Assembly: GCF_003640395.1 (NCBI RefSeq)
Contig: NZ_RBZQ01000002.1
Location: 124,001 to 188,000, forward strand
Reading direction: 5' to 3'
Length of the DNA stretch: 64,000 nucleotides
Source: Stutzerimonas urumqiensis
GTDB taxonomy: Bacteria > Pseudomonadota > Gammaproteobacteria > Pseudomonadales > Pseudomonadaceae
Positions 57,408 through 64,000 of this stretch are shown in pieces; within the stretch, counting starts at the first letter, position 1, and every line of letters starts with the position of its first letter. The notes beneath the pieces were generated by a model that saw only the letters and a list, made by a program, of their open reading frames with translations, ran no database searches and was not told the origin of the DNA. The position numbers were made by a program, and so were the translations under genes.

Positions 57408-57516
57408 AGGGAAACCCCCGGCTGGAAAAGGCGGCAAGTATACGAGCGGCACCTGATGCCCGCCACAATGCGATCGATCGCACAGATTTCCGAAACTATA
57501 GGCATTGCCCGGCACC

Positions 57517-58884
57517 ATGCAGAAAGAAACCGAAATCAAGCTACGCGCCAGCCGCGGCACATTGCTCGCCCTACGCGACCACCCGTTGCTGAAAAAGCGG
57601 AACAAGAGCGGCTGGCAGCGCCATGCGCTGACCAACCAGTACTTCGACACCGATACCCGAGCGCTCGCCCAGGCGCGGGTCGCGCTGCGCCTGCGCCGCG
57701 ACGGCGACACCTACATCCAGACGCTCAAGACGCGCGGCAACAGCGTCGCCGGGCTGTCCGAGCGCAACGAGTGGGACTGGTACCTCGACGCGCCGCAGCT
57801 CGATCCATCGCGACTGACCGATGACTGCTGGCCGGCCAGCCTGGCGGATCTCGACAAGCAGCGCCTCGCACCGATCTTCACCACCGATTTCGTCCGGGAG
57901 AAAGCCGAAATCGCCTGGGGGCGCGGCAAGGCCAAGGTGGTCATCGAGGCCGCACTGGACCTCGGCCAGGTGGTGGCCGGCGAGGCGCAGGAAGAAATCT
58001 GCGAGCTCGAGCTCGAATTGCGCCAAGGCGAGCCGGCGGCCCTGCTGGAGCTGGCCGCGGAGCTCGCCGCCGACCTGCCCCTGATGCCCTGCGACATCAG
58101 CAAGGCCGAGCGCGGCTACCGGCTGCATGACCCGGCCAGCTACGTGCTCAGCCTGCCATTGCCGCTCGTCACGGCCCAGACCACGCTCGACGACGCCTTC
58201 GCCGCCCTCGCCTGGCACCTGCTTGGTAGCAGCCAACGTCTGGCCGAGCAGTACCGCTTCAATGGCCACTGGTCGCTTCTCAGCGAGTGGCTGGAACAGC
58301 TGATCGACCTGCGTGCCTTGCTCGGCAGCCTCGGGCAGGCCGCGCCGCGCGCCAGCACACGGGAGCTGCGCGAGAGCCTGGACGGCCTGCTCGACAGCTG
58401 GCGGCCTCGCGTGCTGGCCGGCGCCAGCGATGAAAGCCTGCGCCATACGGCTCCGGCGCTGTTCGCCGACGAGCTGGCCCAACCCCGCTGGGGGCTCTTC
58501 TCGCTACGGGCATCACGCTGGCTGCTCGGCCGCGACTGGCAAGAAGGTCGCAATGACCGCGGCAACCGCCAGGGCGCCGCGGAACTCGGCAACTGGCTGA
58601 CCCGTGAACTGGCCGAAGAAGCCAAGGCCCTCGCCCTCCCCAGCTACGCCAACCGGCCGGAAGGCCTGGCCGAGCAGCTCCCCCGACTGGAACGCATGCG
58701 GGTCTGGCTGCGCCTCGCCCGCGCCGCGGTCGACGTGCCGGAAGCCGACCGCCTCTATGGCGAGCTGTCCAAGCTGCATGCCCTGGCGACCGCCGCCACG
58801 GACGAACCGATCCAGCACGCGCGGACCGAACAGCTACGCACGCTCCAGTCGCTCAAGAGCTGGAAGCTGCTCAGCCGCCGCTGA
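57517..58884 (+). CDS. CYTH and CHAD domain protein
   Basis: This 455-residue protein has an N-terminal CYTH domain (about residues 1-200) with the ExExK motif (E4-T-E6-I-K8). A C-terminal CHAD domain follows (about 215-455), a helical module rich in His, Arg and Lys that binds polyphosphate. CYTH enzymes of this type hydrolyse inorganic triphosphate. I infer a role in triphosphate or polyphosphate metabolism, supported by the divergent phosphate transport genes. I chose the ATG at 57517 so the ExExK motif lies at the N-terminus; a TTG at 57505 is an alternative. Confidence 0.88.
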   Translation: MQKETEIKLRASRGTLLALRDHPLLKKRNKSGWQRHALTNQYFDTDTRALAQARVALRLRRDGDTYIQTLKTRGNSVAGLSERNEWDWYLDAPQLDPSRLTDDCWPASLADLDKQRLAPIFTTDFVREKAEIAWGRGKAKVVIEAALDLGQVVAGEAQEEICELELELRQGEPAALLELAAELAADLPLMPCDISKAERGYRLHDPASYVLSLPLPLVTAQTTLDDAFAALAWHLLGSSQRLAEQYRFNGHWSLLSEWLEQLIDLRALLGSLGQAAPRASTRELRESLDGLLDSWRPRVLAGASDESLRHTAPALFADELAQPRWGLFSLRASRWLLGRDWQEGRNDRGNRQGAAELGNWLTRELAEEAKALALPSYANRPEGLAEQLPRLERMRVWLRLARAAVDVPEADRLYGELSKLHALATAATDEPIQHARTEQLRTLQSLKSWKLLSRR

Positions 58885-59082: not shown

Positions 59083-60462
59083 ATGACCCGACTCTCCTGC
59101 TCGGCAGTCGCCCTGCTGGGCTTGCTGCTTAGCGGTTGCGAAACCTTTCGCAGCTATGAAACCGAGCTCACTGCCGTCAACCAGCACATCCAGGCCGGCG
59201 ACGTCGATGCCGCGCTCGTCCTGCTCGAAAAAAACAACAGCGGTGACGATAAAGACCTTCTCTATTACCTCGAGAAAGGCGAATTGCTGCGCACCAAGGG
59301 CGACCTTGATGCCAGCCAGGCCGCCTGGGCGGTGGCCGATCGAACGGTCACTCAGTGGGAGGACACGATCAAGGCCGACCCAGAGAAATACCTGGCCGAA
59401 TTTGGCAGCCTGCTGGTCAACGACAAAGTGCGTCGCTACGAAGGTTACGACTACGAGAAGGTGATGCTCACCACCCAGATGGCGCTCAATCACCTTGCGC
59501 GCGGTCACTTCGAGCAGGCGCGTACAGACATCAAGAAAACCCACGAGCGGGAAGCGTTCATCAGCGAGCTTCGCGATCGTGAGTACCTCAAGCGCGAAGA
59601 GGAAGCAGAGGCAAAAGGCATCACGGCGCAGTACACCGACCTCCAGGGCTATCCCGTGCAAACGCTGGAAGCGCCCGAAGTGCTCAGCTTGAAAAATAGC
59701 TACCAGAGCGCGTTCAGTCACTACTTGGCCGGTTTCATCTACGAAGCGCTGGGTGAGAAGGGTCTGGCTGCGCCAGGCTATCGCAAGGCGATCGAACTGC
59801 ATCCAAACGAGCCACTGCTCGAGCAAGCGCTGGTCCAACTCGACGCTCCGGCCCCTGGGTCCGGCCAAAGCGATGTATTGATCGTGCTGCAAGCCGGCCT
59901 GGCGCCTGCACGCGATTCGGTACGGATTCCGCTGCCGATTCCGACTACGACAGGGCTGATCATCACCCCGCTGTCCTTCCCAGTGATCAAAAGCGAGCTG
60001 GGTTCGGGCCTGCAAGGCGGCGTCCTGCTTGACGGAGAAGCCTTGCCGCTGGTTCAGCTCAACAACACTGATGCTATGTCGCGTCGTGCGCTGCGCGATG
60101 ACATGCCCGGCATTATCCTGCGCACCAGCGTGCGAGCGATCAGCCGAAGCGTTCTGCAAAAGCAGCTCAACGACAACGTAAGCCCGCTAGCGGGCCTGGC
60201 CGTCGGCGTGTTTTCCGCGGTGACCGAGGGCGCCGACGAGCGTACTTGGCGCACGTTGCCAGACCAGACGCTAGTAGCCCGCCTACGTCTGCCACATGGC
60301 GAACATTTGATCACCCTACCGAATGGGCAGCAGGCGCAGGTAAAGGTAGACCAAGCGTTTCAGGTGGTCGCGCTACGCATGATCGGAAGCCAAGCCTTCG
60401 CTGCCAGCCCAGCCGTGCAAATCACCCCTTCTACTCCAACAAGCCTCGCCCAGGCCCTGTGA
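59083..60462 (+). CDS. COG3014-family lipoprotein
   Basis: This 459-residue protein has a lipoprotein signal with lipobox LLSGC (C19, then Glu at +2). The mature N-terminal half is helical and TPR-like (HIQAGDVDAALVLLEKNN, ARGHFEQARTDIKKTHERE, YLAGFIYEALGEKGLAAPGYRKAIELHP). The C-terminal half (about 270-459) is beta-rich. It resembles the uncharacterised COG3014 family. It is the first of four closely spaced genes (gap to next 11 bases) encoding predicted envelope proteins. Codon use looks less GC-biased than that of surrounding genes, which suggests transfer. Function is unknown; an outer-membrane scaffold for the downstream lipoproteins is one idea. Confidence 0.78.
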   Translation: MTRLSCSAVALLGLLLSGCETFRSYETELTAVNQHIQAGDVDAALVLLEKNNSGDDKDLLYYLEKGELLRTKGDLDASQAAWAVADRTVTQWEDTIKADPEKYLAEFGSLLVNDKVRRYEGYDYEKVMLTTQMALNHLARGHFEQARTDIKKTHEREAFISELRDREYLKREEEAEAKGITAQYTDLQGYPVQTLEAPEVLSLKNSYQSAFSHYLAGFIYEALGEKGLAAPGYRKAIELHPNEPLLEQALVQLDAPAPGSGQSDVLIVLQAGLAPARDSVRIPLPIPTTTGLIITPLSFPVIKSELGSGLQGGVLLDGEALPLVQLNNTDAMSRRALRDDMPGIILRTSVRAISRSVLQKQLNDNVSPLAGLAVGVFSAVTEGADERTWRTLPDQTLVARLRLPHGEHLITLPNGQQAQVKVDQAFQVVALRMIGSQAFAASPAVQITPSTPTSLAQAL

Positions 60463-60473
60463 GCCAGACATCC

Positions 60474-60872
60474 ATGACCCGATTCAGTCCCCTTTTGCTC
60501 GCCATCGCTTTACTCACCACTGGCTGCGCCACACCTCCTCCGCCTGCACCTGGTAGCGCGGCCAGCAAAATCGTCTCGCTTGGAAGCATGAAGCACATCG
60601 AAGTCGGCGCCATGCGCGTTGCCCGTGAAAACGGCTTTCTCACCGTGAAGGCCGCGCTGACCAACACCAGCGCAAAGAACAAATCGATCTACTACCGCTT
60701 TGCCTGGCTTGGTGACGACGGTTTCCCTGTTGCTCCCGAAGAGAGCTGGAAAAGCCTGACGCTTTACGGCACCCAGACCAGCTACCTCCCGGCGATCGCG
60801 CCGGTTCCTCAGGCAACGGACTTCCGACTCGAAGTCCAGACGCCCGAAAACTCCGTCAACCTCTTCCGCTAA
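60474..60872 (+). CDS. YcfL-like (DUF1425) lipoprotein
   Basis: This 132-residue protein has a lipobox LTTGC (C18, Ala at +2), so it is probably an outer-membrane lipoprotein. The mature part (GFLTVKAALTNTSAKNKSIYYRFAWLGDDG) matches the YcfL/DUF1425 domain, which has an immunoglobulin-like fold. In E. coli ycfL sits beside lpoB. Here too it lies just before an LpoB-like gene, nine bases away, which supports both calls. Its own function is unknown. Confidence 0.82.
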   Translation: MTRFSPLLLAIALLTTGCATPPPPAPGSAASKIVSLGSMKHIEVGAMRVARENGFLTVKAALTNTSAKNKSIYYRFAWLGDDGFPVAPEESWKSLTLYGTQTSYLPAIAPVPQATDFRLEVQTPENSVNLFR

Positions 60873-60881
60873 AGGTCCGCC

Positions 60882-61472
60882 ATGTCTATTCGTATCCTCG
60901 CCCTGCTCACCGCTGCCGCCATGCTGACTGGCTGCGCCTCGACTGCCTCGCCCGTACTGGGCGGTGGCAACATTAGCTACGGCGACACCAAGGCTATCGA
61001 ACTGGTGACCAACGAGTTCGGCTCGACCGACCTGCAAAGCATCGCCGAATCGATGGCGCGCTCACTGGCTCAGTCAGGTGTACTGCAAGCTCGCCCTGTT
61101 ATTCAGGTCTACGACGTCAAGAACAAGACCAGCGAATACATCGACACGCGTGAAATCACCACATCCATCAAGACGCAGCTGATGAAGAGTGGAACAGCAC
61201 GCTTCGCCAGCGACAACACGGACATGCAGAGCCAGGTCGACCAGCTCAAGTTGCAAAACCAGAGCGGCCTCTATAAGGATGCGACCGTCAGCCAGATGGG
61301 CAACATGGTGGCGGCCAAGTACCGTTTGGAAGGCAGCATCAGCTCGATCGTCAAACGCAGCAGTGACTACAAGGACGTCTTCTACAAATTCAGCCTGCAA
61401 CTGGTCGATGTCGAGACTGGCTTGGCCGAGTGGATGGACGAAAAGGAAATTCGCAAGACCACGGAGCGCTGA
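60882..61472 (+). CDS. LpoB-like penicillin-binding protein activator lipoprotein
   Basis: This 196-residue protein has a lipobox MLTGC (C18) followed by Ala, consistent with the outer membrane. The mature domain (KAIELVTNEFGSTDLQSIAESMARSL to LVDVETGLAEWMDEKEIRK) matches the LpoB family, related to the TolB-N/CsgG fold. In E. coli LpoB reaches through the peptidoglycan to activate PBP1b. Pseudomonas is known to use a different activator, LpoP, so this would be an additional protein. A short linker follows the lipid anchor, shorter than in E. coli LpoB. It overlaps nothing but lies nine bases after the YcfL-like gene. Confidence 0.82.
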   Translation: MSIRILALLTAAAMLTGCASTASPVLGGGNISYGDTKAIELVTNEFGSTDLQSIAESMARSLAQSGVLQARPVIQVYDVKNKTSEYIDTREITTSIKTQLMKSGTARFASDNTDMQSQVDQLKLQNQSGLYKDATVSQMGNMVAAKYRLEGSISSIVKRSSDYKDVFYKFSLQLVDVETGLAEWMDEKEIRKTTER

Positions 61473-61473
61473 G

Positions 61474-62214
61474 ATGCGTGCACTCACCGGTTTTCTGTTA
61501 TTCGGCCTGAGCCTGGTGTGCCAGGCATCCCCCAAAATCGTGGTTACCGACTTGGCGTATGAAGAGCGCATCAGCGGTTACATCCATATCGTCAATGCCA
61601 GCAGCCAGGCCCAGATCAACGGCCTCTCTGGCTCGTCCAGTAGCCAGTACAACGAACTGGAGGCGACCTACAGTTACCTCGAACAAGGCGAACTGAAGAA
61701 GTTCACTGGCGATATCAAGGGCGCAATCCTTAAGTCCCGCCAGTTCGAGCTGGTTCAGGGCAAACCGCATGGCAAACAGAACGAAGGGGTATACGACGTC
61801 ATCGCGCGTATCCGCAACGGTGACTTCAAGGGGGCGGACTATGTGCTATTCGGCAGCCTTTCGGATCTCGACTTCCGCCAGGATCTGAACGATCTCCAGC
61901 ACACCGACAGCTACTCCAAGGTGTACGGCCTGACGCTGGTCGCTGATTTCAGCCTGGTCGACACCCGTACCTACAAGATTGTCGCCGCCTTCACCGCCAC
62001 GGGCGAAGGCAAGGATGTAAAGCTGATCAATGCAGCCGATGTCCAGGTCACACCGAACCGCGGCCGCGTGGTCAGAGCAGTTTCCCAGACACTGGGAGAC
62101 GATGTTGCACGCCAGCTGCAAGCTCAACTGAGCGGGATCGATCCATCCTTCGCAGCGCCGACCGCGCCGGCCAATTCGCTGCCGCCTGACCAACCGGCAC
62201 AAATCCTCCGTTAA
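61474..62214 (+). CDS. CsgG/LpoB-related secreted protein
   Basis: This 246-residue protein has a signal peptide (LLFGLSLVCQASP, cleavage near residue 18) but no clear lipobox, so it should be periplasmic. The rest resembles the CsgG-type penicillin-binding activator domain (KIVVTDLAYEERISGYIHIV, then GADYVLFGSLSDLDFRQD and SLVDTRTYKIVAAFTATGEG). The ATG is one base after the stop of the LpoB-like gene, so the two are co-translated. It may form a complex with the upstream lipoproteins. A curli-type secretion role is unlikely without csg genes nearby. Confidence 0.78.
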   Translation: MRALTGFLLFGLSLVCQASPKIVVTDLAYEERISGYIHIVNASSQAQINGLSGSSSSQYNELEATYSYLEQGELKKFTGDIKGAILKSRQFELVQGKPHGKQNEGVYDVIARIRNGDFKGADYVLFGSLSDLDFRQDLNDLQHTDSYSKVYGLTLVADFSLVDTRTYKIVAAFTATGEGKDVKLINAADVQVTPNRGRVVRAVSQTLGDDVARQLQAQLSGIDPSFAAPTAPANSLPPDQPAQILR

Positions 62215-62333: not shown

Positions 62334-64000
62334 ATGTCCCTCTTCAACACTGCCGCCGCCTCCGATCGAATGCTCGACCTCAACGATGTTCTGCGCGAAC
62401 TGGTCGAACAGGGCCGGATGGACCAGGACACCGCCGAGCAATGCCTGGCCATCCGCCGCGGCAGCGCCAACGGTCAGCAGCATCCGCTGGAATTCCTCGC
62501 CGCGCAGCAGATCGAAGACCGCACCCGCCCCGGCAAGACGCTCGACCTCGAAACGCTGACCCAATGGCTTGCCGCGTTGGCCGGGCAACCCTACCTGCGG
62601 ATCGACCCGCTGAAGATCGACGTCGCCGCGGTCACGCCGTTGATGTCGTACGCCTTCGCCCAGCGCCACAAGATCCTCGCCGTCGCGGTCAGCCCCGAGG
62701 CCGTCACCATCGCCAGCGCCCAGCCGTTCGCCCATGGCTGGGAGTCGAACCTGACGCACGTGCTCAAGCGCCCGATCAAGCGGGTGGTGGCCAATCCCAC
62801 CGACATTCAGCGCTTCACCAACGAGTTCTACCGCCTGGCGCGCTCGGTCACCGGCGCCACCGCAACCGACCAGAAGGTCAGCGGCATCGGCAACTTCGAG
62901 CAATTGCTGAACCTGGGCGCGAGCGACCAGGAGCCGGATGCCAACGACGCGCATATCGTCAACATCGTCGACTGGCTGTTCCAGTACGCCTTCCAGCAGC
63001 GGGCCAGTGACATCCACATCGAGCCGCGCCGCGAACAGGGCACGGTGCGCTTTCGTATCGATGGCGTGTTGCACAACGTCTACCAGTTTCCACCGCAGGT
63101 GACGATGGCGGTGGTGAGCCGGCTGAAGACGCTGGGGCGGATGAACGTCGCCGAAAAGCGCAAGCCGCAGGACGGGCGCGTCAAGACCAAGACGCCGGAG
63201 GGCGGCGAAGTCGAACTGCGCCTGTCGACCTTGCCGACCGCGTTCGGCGAGAAGATGGTGATGCGGATCTTCGACCCGGAAGTCCTGCTCAAGAGCTTTG
63301 ACCAGCTCGGCTTCTCGGGGGACGATCTCAAGCGCTGGCAGAGCATGACCGGCCAGCCCAACGGCATCATCCTGGTCACCGGCCCGACGGGTTCGGGCAA
63401 GACCACCACGCTTTACACCACGCTCAAGCAGCTGGCGACGCCGGAGGTGAACGTCTGCACCATCGAAGACCCGATCGAGATGATCGAGGGCGCCTTCAAC
63501 CAGATGCAGGTGCAGCACAACATCGACCTGACCTTCGCCAGCGGCGTACGGGCGCTGATGCGGCAGGACCCGGACATCATCATGATCGGCGAGATCCGCG
63601 ACCTGGAGACCGCCGAGATGGCCATCCAGGCCGCGCTGACCGGGCACCTGGTGCTCTCGACGCTGCACACCAACGACGCGCCGAGCGCCATCACGCGCCT
63701 GCTCGAGCTCGGCGTGCCGCATTACCTGCTCAAGGCGACGCTGCTGGGCGTGATGGCGCAGCGGCTGGTGCGCACGCTCTGCCCGCACTGCAAGGCGCCA
63801 ACCACGCTGAACGAAGACGACTGGCAGGCGCTCACCCGCCCATGGAACGCCCCGCTGCCGACCGGCGCGATGCGTGCGGTGGGTTGTATCGAATGCCGCG
63901 AGACGGGCTACCGCGGGCGCGCCGGCGTCTACGAGATCATGCTGCTCAACGATGGCATCAAGCCGCTGATCAAGGCCGACACCGAACTCGTCCCGCTGCG
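62334..64000 (+). CDS. GspE/PilB-family secretion ATPase (partial, runs off right edge)
   Basis: An open frame starts at ATG 62334 after AAGGAACG and continues to the window end (555 codons and two bases). It shows an N-terminal regulatory region, then ASDIHIEPRREQGTVRFRIDG, the Walker A motif LVTGPTGSGKTTTLYTTL, the acidic CTIEDPIE, the Walker B DPDIIMIGEIRD and the HLVLSTLHTNDA box. A zinc site with CPHC and a later CIEC in GCIECRETGYRGRAGVYE is typical of GspE/PilB. It powers type II secretion, type IV pili or a related assembly. In P. aeruginosa a lone secretion-type ATPase gene follows the CYTH gene. No pilus or Gsp partners are visible here. Confidence 0.9.
   Translation, partial: MSLFNTAAASDRMLDLNDVLRELVEQGRMDQDTAEQCLAIRRGSANGQQHPLEFLAAQQIEDRTRPGKTLDLETLTQWLAALAGQPYLRIDPLKIDVAAVTPLMSYAFAQRHKILAVAVSPEAVTIASAQPFAHGWESNLTHVLKRPIKRVVANPTDIQRFTNEFYRLARSVTGATATDQKVSGIGNFEQLLNLGASDQEPDANDAHIVNIVDWLFQYAFQQRASDIHIEPRREQGTVRFRIDGVLHNVYQFPPQVTMAVVSRLKTLGRMNVAEKRKPQDGRVKTKTPEGGEVELRLSTLPTAFGEKMVMRIFDPEVLLKSFDQLGFSGDDLKRWQSMTGQPNGIILVTGPTGSGKTTTLYTTLKQLATPEVNVCTIEDPIEMIEGAFNQMQVQHNIDLTFASGVRALMRQDPDIIMIGEIRDLETAEMAIQAALTGHLVLSTLHTNDAPSAITRLLELGVPHYLLKATLLGVMAQRLVRTLCPHCKAPTTLNEDDWQALTRPWNAPLPTGAMRAVGCIECRETGYRGRAGVYEIMLLNDGIKPLIKADTELVPL

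Follow-up and report, generated by a model that had tools for sequence, protein, structure and literature searches.

A conserved four-gene lipoprotein operon of Pseudomonadaceae at the CYTH–GspE junction of Stutzerimonas urumqiensis

The window studied here is a stretch of 64,000 nucleotides from the forward strand of Stutzerimonas urumqiensis (assembly GCF_003640395.1, contig NZ_RBZQ01000002.1, positions 124,001–188,000). Near its end lie four tightly packed genes, hereafter the block, for a tetratricopeptide-like (TPR) lipoprotein (gene 1), a YcfL-like lipoprotein (gene 2), an LpoB-family lipoprotein (gene 3) and a secreted protein (g4). The block is an old operon of the Pseudomonadaceae and is conserved as a unit in many Pseudomonas. 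On sequence comparison and predicted structures, we lean towards the view that it encodes an outer-membrane-anchored periplasmic complex, relocated once and often lost, and we favour such a separate complex over a second activator of the penicillin-binding protein PBP1B, which is a rather unlikely role.

Conservation and genomic address of the block

Named genomes were scanned with the g4 profile, and the best 80 of at least 308 relatives were kept, 79 of them titled Pseudomonas or Stutzerimonas and one a "Paucimonas" assembly. In all 80 loci the four genes are complete and in the same order and strand. In the family sample, LpoB was found in 75 of 298 genomes, with 62 strong (at least 66% identity) and 13 weak matches (E 1.5e-6 to 2.7e-14); the full set is present in each of the 18 genomes examined among the 62, the window's included. 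The block that a sequence-only reading of the window had taken for a unit thus does co-occur in other genomes. One copy, in G187 (L124, 7518–10660), evolves unusually fast: its gene 1 is 49% identical to that of the window and sits on a long branch, and its LpoB is 82% identical.

Presence within the genus is patchy. Among 56 genus genomes (two of them incomplete: G068, 73%; G004, 71%), gene 1 was found at 74–100% identity in three, at 24–26% in five, and not in the other 48. The three close matches, the window genome and strains TS44 and KOS6 of S. stutzeri, are the carriers of the block.

The usual address of the block is a different one from that in the window. In 74 of the 80 named loci it lies beside ElbB/YaiI/FTR1 and/or LysE/ABC-F, in two (TS44 and KOS6) it has CYTH and GspE on either side, the arrangement of the window, and in four it lies beside neither neighbour set. 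ElbB, YaiI and ABC-F are names of our own; YaiI/DUF188, FTR1 and LysE were confirmed by Pfam in one example each, and FTR1 is a poor marker of the site (2 of the 56 genus genomes, 64–65% identity). The ElbB–LysE spacing is 1.1–3.3 kb in eight Stutzerimonas genomes, and in the five that were read the usual site is empty, YaiI adjoining LysE with no block gene. In the window genome this empty YaiI–LysE site shares a contig with the block, at a distance of about 37 kb. In three of the loci read (L310, L311 and L312) ElbB and YaiI are separated by approximately 2 kb more than in the other two Stutzerimonas genomes, and in L310 the extra stretch holds a 711-residue open reading frame (ORF). Three genomes of another genus (g34) carry the block with no CYTH or GspE gene beside it; the ORF list of one of them (L125) shows neither neighbour set.

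The junction occupied in the window is empty in most of the other genus genomes examined. Among 31 block-free genus genomes whose junction was examined, CYTH is followed by GspE at 63–822 bases in 29; of the remaining two, G014 is cut by a contig end and G009 (L133) has no GspE within 7 kb downstream. The sequence-only reading had described the block as lying between a CYTH/CHAD gene and a GspE-like gene; CYTH and a T2SSE/MshEN ATPase were found, whereas the upstream gene gave no Pfam match to CHAD at E 0.1.

A wider class sample (185 genomes, 176 genera) was searched with profiles built from Pseudomonadaceae, which may miss distant relatives. The LpoB profile matched in 18 genomes and gene 1 in 31, and both occurred in 14 against 3.0 expected (P 1.4e-9), with the two genes within 2.8 kb of each other in all 14. 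The only g4 match was in the window genome. Within the reach of these searches, the association of gene 1 with LpoB is therefore gammaproteobacterial, and g4 was added in the Pseudomonadaceae. The titles and abstracts listed from an open-licence library included none on this operon in Pseudomonas.

Products of the four genes

The coordinates of the block and its flanking genes are collected in Table 1. The ORF analysis matched the four genes and the gaps of 11, 9 and 1 bases given by the sequence-only reading. No promoter-like site was found in a promoter scan, and a terminator scan gave one terminator-like site against 3.7 expected. Across the three Stutzerimonas copies, all four genes are under purifying selection (dN/dS 0.08–0.20).

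Table 1 Genes of the block and its flanks in the window.
Feature	Coordinates	Strand	Product and evidence
Gene 1	59083..60462	+	Lipoprotein, 459 aa, lipobox LLSGC, Cys19; ORF
Gene 2	60474..60872	+	DUF1425/YcfL-like lipoprotein, 132 aa; PF07233 E 8.9e-21
Gene 3	60882..61472	+	LpoB-family lipoprotein, 196 aa, Cys18; PF13036 match from residue 50
Gene 4 (g4)	61474..62214	+	Secreted, non-lipidated, 246 aa; predicted FlgT/CsgG/TolB-N-like fold
Block, genes 1–4	59083..62214	+	Four-gene operon
Upstream flank	57505..58884	+	CYTH-domain gene; PF01928 E 3.3e-29
Downstream flank	62334..63998	+	GspE/MshE-like ATPase gene; PF00437 E 3.3e-122, PF05157 E 2.3e-14

The AlphaFold2 model of gene 1 (pLDDT 81.3, pTM 0.83) has helices over residues 25–254 and strands over 262–448, with inserted helices at 329–381, so that the protein is predicted to be a helical TPR-like solenoid with a C-terminal beta domain. 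Pfam gave sub-threshold TPR matches only (TPR_2 in 14 of 16 family members), and a profile search of the PDB returned TPR-type matches. The label COG3014, which we apply to this protein, comes from none of the libraries searched. Gene 2, named YcfL-like by the sequence-only reading, passes the gathering score of its Pfam family (74 bits against 28.3) and has a lipobox in all 98 rows of its family set. The LpoB-like assignment of gene 3 likewise holds: it matches PF13036 (E 3.6e-41; 140.9 bits against 22.3) and, over residues 6–192, the NCBIfam model TIGR02722 (138.1 bits, cutoff 110.55), which is a full-length match over a curated cutoff. Its mean column identity in 16 family members is 88%, and the lipobox is present in 98 of 98 rows. 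For a PBP1B activator of the E. coli type, the sorting rule for lipoproteins calls for a residue other than Asp at position +2; gene 3 has Ala and not Asp at that position.

The product of g4 begins with a signal-peptide-like stretch, has a lipobox in none of 98 rows and ends in a conserved tail (LPxDxAPxILR). The sequence-only reading had called it a CsgG-related periplasmic protein; the secretion and a CsgG-like predicted fold stand, while relationship to CsgG by family does not. The predicted model resembles FlgT, PelC, CsgG and TolB-N, with identities of 7–19% among the matches listed. In 16 family members, no Pfam match to CsgG (PF03783) or FlgT was found at E up to 1, and g4 carries no lipid anchor. 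Membership in the CsgG family and identity as FlgT were accordingly rejected, the similarity to both being in fold alone. A sequence profile search of the PDB with g4 returned no meaningful match. Its match to the LpoB family (PF13036) is below the cutoff (E 0.039), with LpoB matches at E up to 1 in 14 of the 16 members (best 3.5e-5). Profile comparison gave a probability of 3–4 with the LpoB of the operon itself, 84.9 (E 6.5e-6) with a mixed LpoB set, and 39.8 (E 3e-4) with the FlgT-like protein of a divergent cluster in genome G021.

History and possible function

The history of the block was read from gene trees and synonymous distances (dS). On a PBP1B tree of 39 tips (36 genus genomes) the carriers are scattered: the window genome lies deep with G058, TS44 beside G062 and G067, and KOS6 near G063 and G010, the last four genomes being without the block. 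In each of the four gene trees the three Stutzerimonas copies cluster as one clade (support 0.995, 0.947, 0.81 and 0.73), and a joint tree places them next to HMWF032 and sp1636, in line with the PBP1B tree. Between TS44 and KOS6 the dS of the block (0.41–0.56) is close to that of the flanks (0.32–0.49). One relocation in an ancestor of Stutzerimonas followed by repeated loss, as we infer it, fits these trees: the block would have moved from the YaiI/FTR1–LysE site to the CYTH–GspE junction and then been lost in most species.

The sequence-only reading had described the block as inserted at the junction and as less GC-rich than its surroundings. The composition is as it stated: GC is 0.590 in the block against 0.661 in 5 kb on either side, and GC at third codon positions (GC3) is 0.70–0.77 in the four block genes against 0.81–0.91 in four flanking genes. 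A recent horizontal insertion would agree with this lower GC, with the presence in 3 of 56 genus genomes, and with a window–TS44 distance of the block that exceeds that of the flanks. We consider it very improbable, however. The LpoP gene of the same genome, a native yardstick, has a GC3 of 0.74 and a window–TS44 dS of 1.67; the lower GC of the block is thus within the native range, and its dS is inside the range of eight other genes (0.48–1.67). In the other two carriers the GC of the block is close to that of the flanks (0.626 against 0.667 in TS44, 0.636 against 0.652 in KOS6). Moreover, junction and orientation are identical in a deep-branching species and in two strains that are distant from each other in the tree of the genus, the usual site is empty in the Stutzerimonas genomes read, and the sole match in a plasmid collection is an Aeromonas record that looks like a chromosome. 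Since the block occupies another site in many Pseudomonas, its Stutzerimonas copies form a clade placed much as in the PBP1B tree, and its GC is in the native range, "inserted" is not upheld if it is taken to mean that the block is foreign or came recently. The Aeromonas record (NZ_AP026896.1, L315, Aeromonas caviae) is labelled a plasmid, spans 4.9 Mb with 18 listed features and is probably a mislabelled chromosome.

As to function, the proposed link to PBP1B activation comes from the LpoB family name. If the block were a second activator, gene 3 would bind the UB2H domain of PBP1B beside LpoP and its three partners would tune it. In agreement with such a role, gene 3 is over the TIGR02722 equivalog cutoff, E. 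coli has ycfL directly before lpoB, and PBP1B has a UB2H domain in the window genome and over the cutoff in 55 of the 56 genus genomes. UB2H profile scores, however, do not differ between carriers and noncarriers, and 48 of the 56 genomes lack gene 1 of either version. The activator LpoP that the sequence-only reading had named for Pseudomonas has a counterpart in the window genome, where a gene starting 15 bases after PBP1B encodes a lipoprotein matching the solved LpoP of P. aeruginosa (E 4.1e-51). An LpoP-like gene, judged by eye from the gene ends, comes next after PBP1B in 29 of the 30 genomes tested, including 17 of the 18 block carriers, with G140 left unassigned. LpoP is the demonstrated activator of PBP1B in P. 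aeruginosa (PMC7267771, excerpt) and in A. baumannii (PMC7943195, excerpt). LpoB of E. coli is described as elongated, approximately 145 Å, and spanning the periplasm (PMC9593243, excerpt); there, about 50 proline-rich residues lie between Cys20 and the Pfam match, which begins at residue 72. Gene 3 has 31 residues between Cys18 and the start of its domain, with one proline and a conserved motif. It lacks the long proline-rich linker of the E. coli type, and the short linker, as read from the sequence, lends no support to binding of PBP1B, while being compatible with it. The match of gene 3 to the solved LpoB is also weak (E 0.3), and a PDB search with the family profile returned no LpoB chain at E up to 1. 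The two proteins coexist in the same genomes, and the idea that LpoB replaces LpoP was rejected for that reason. A less probable variant is that two lipoprotein systems of the outer membrane, unrelated in fold, both act on one PBP1B in the same cell: LpoP, a TPR protein, and an LpoB-based four-protein assembly that includes a secreted FlgT/TolB-like partner. The second would be an optional input, freely relocated and lost by lineages. About equally doubtful is a CsgG-type apparatus in which g4 would join the LpoB-fold protein in a ring, either in the outer membrane or in the periplasm, for the export or assembly of a surface polymer or appendage. The g4 model does resemble CsgG, PelC and FlgT, and the G021 cluster combines gene 1, DUF1425 and LpoB with DUF6844 and a sub-threshold FlgT_C protein; on the other side, the operon holds no substrate gene, and g4 has neither a lipid anchor nor a meaningful PDB sequence match.

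We return to the separate envelope complex as the favoured explanation. The block would be a version of a wider gammaproteobacterial set, a TPR lipoprotein and an LpoB-family lipoprotein often with DUF1425, to which the secreted partner g4 was added. The three lipoproteins may be located in the outer membrane and retain g4 there, with the conserved C-terminal tail of g4 and the TPR protein as a possible means of attachment. CsgG, PelC and FlgT form rings, and the assembly may be ring-like as well. LpoP would stay the main activator of PBP1B, and the block would serve an accessory, dispensable envelope function.

Several observations weigh against this explanation. In the class sample, LpoB is unmatched in 17 of the 31 genomes with gene 1, and gene 1 in 4 of the 18 with LpoB, which speaks against a strict pair. 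Confidence in the g4 model is moderate (pLDDT 69.4), and a common fold shows no function. The node of the joint tree towards HMWF032 and sp1636 is weak (support 0.56), and the window–TS44 dS of the block (0.94–1.60) is above that of the two flanks (0.50–0.70), which disfavours simple joint descent; recombination in the flanks may have carried the block between Stutzerimonas genomes. Loss would have to be invoked about ten times independently, as counted by eye on the 39-tip tree, and the 29 distinct empty junctions showed no recognisable remnant: a tblastn search of 34 loci from these genomes, with the four proteins as queries, gave nothing better than E 0.05, and blastn of the window's upstream intergenic piece against empty junctions gave none better than E 2.1 among the matches listed.

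Comparison with known systems

The E. coli locus hinT-ycfL-lpoB-thiK-nagZ shares with the block a DUF1425 gene directly before an LpoB-family gene, but has no gene 1 and no g4 beside the pair, and the linker of its LpoB is longer and proline-rich. LpoP of Pseudomonas differs in being encoded beside PBP1B, and it coexists with the block. As for FlgT, of the flagellar ring, and the CsgG/PelC/TolB-N fold group, the four-gene operon contains no flagellar or curli genes. Within the LpoB/YcfL kind, the block is a variant that includes a TPR lipoprotein and a FlgT/TolB-like partner, and its address has changed.

Under the NCBI model, gene 3 would be annotated as "penicillin-binding protein activator LpoB", whereas the activator shown in P. 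aeruginosa is LpoP. Because a TPR lipoprotein accompanies LpoB above chance (14 of 18), yet is not beside E. coli lpoB, the comparison suggests that the LpoB name is not to be taken as a function. A natural comparison is offered by Stutzerimonas genomes that carry the operon at the known junction and those that lack it there. In A. baylyi the gene called lpoB (ACIAD2235) and mrcB (ACIAD2234) have consecutive locus numbers (PMC6586353, excerpt). This is the position that LpoP has in Pseudomonas, and the A. baylyi gene may be of LpoP type under the name lpoB.

Gene 1 of the divergent kind occurs in five genus genomes, none with the four-gene block. The five-gene cluster of G021 (L128, 5640–10946) has the gene 1, DUF1425 and LpoB families in the same order as the block, but at 24–30% identity and another site, with DUF6844 as an additional gene and a larger gene at the end, that of the sub-threshold FlgT_C protein. 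Homologues of DUF6844 and of the FlgT-like protein are also present in L129 (G034), L130 (G023) and L136 (G108), and a TGA occurs within the match to gene 1 in G023.

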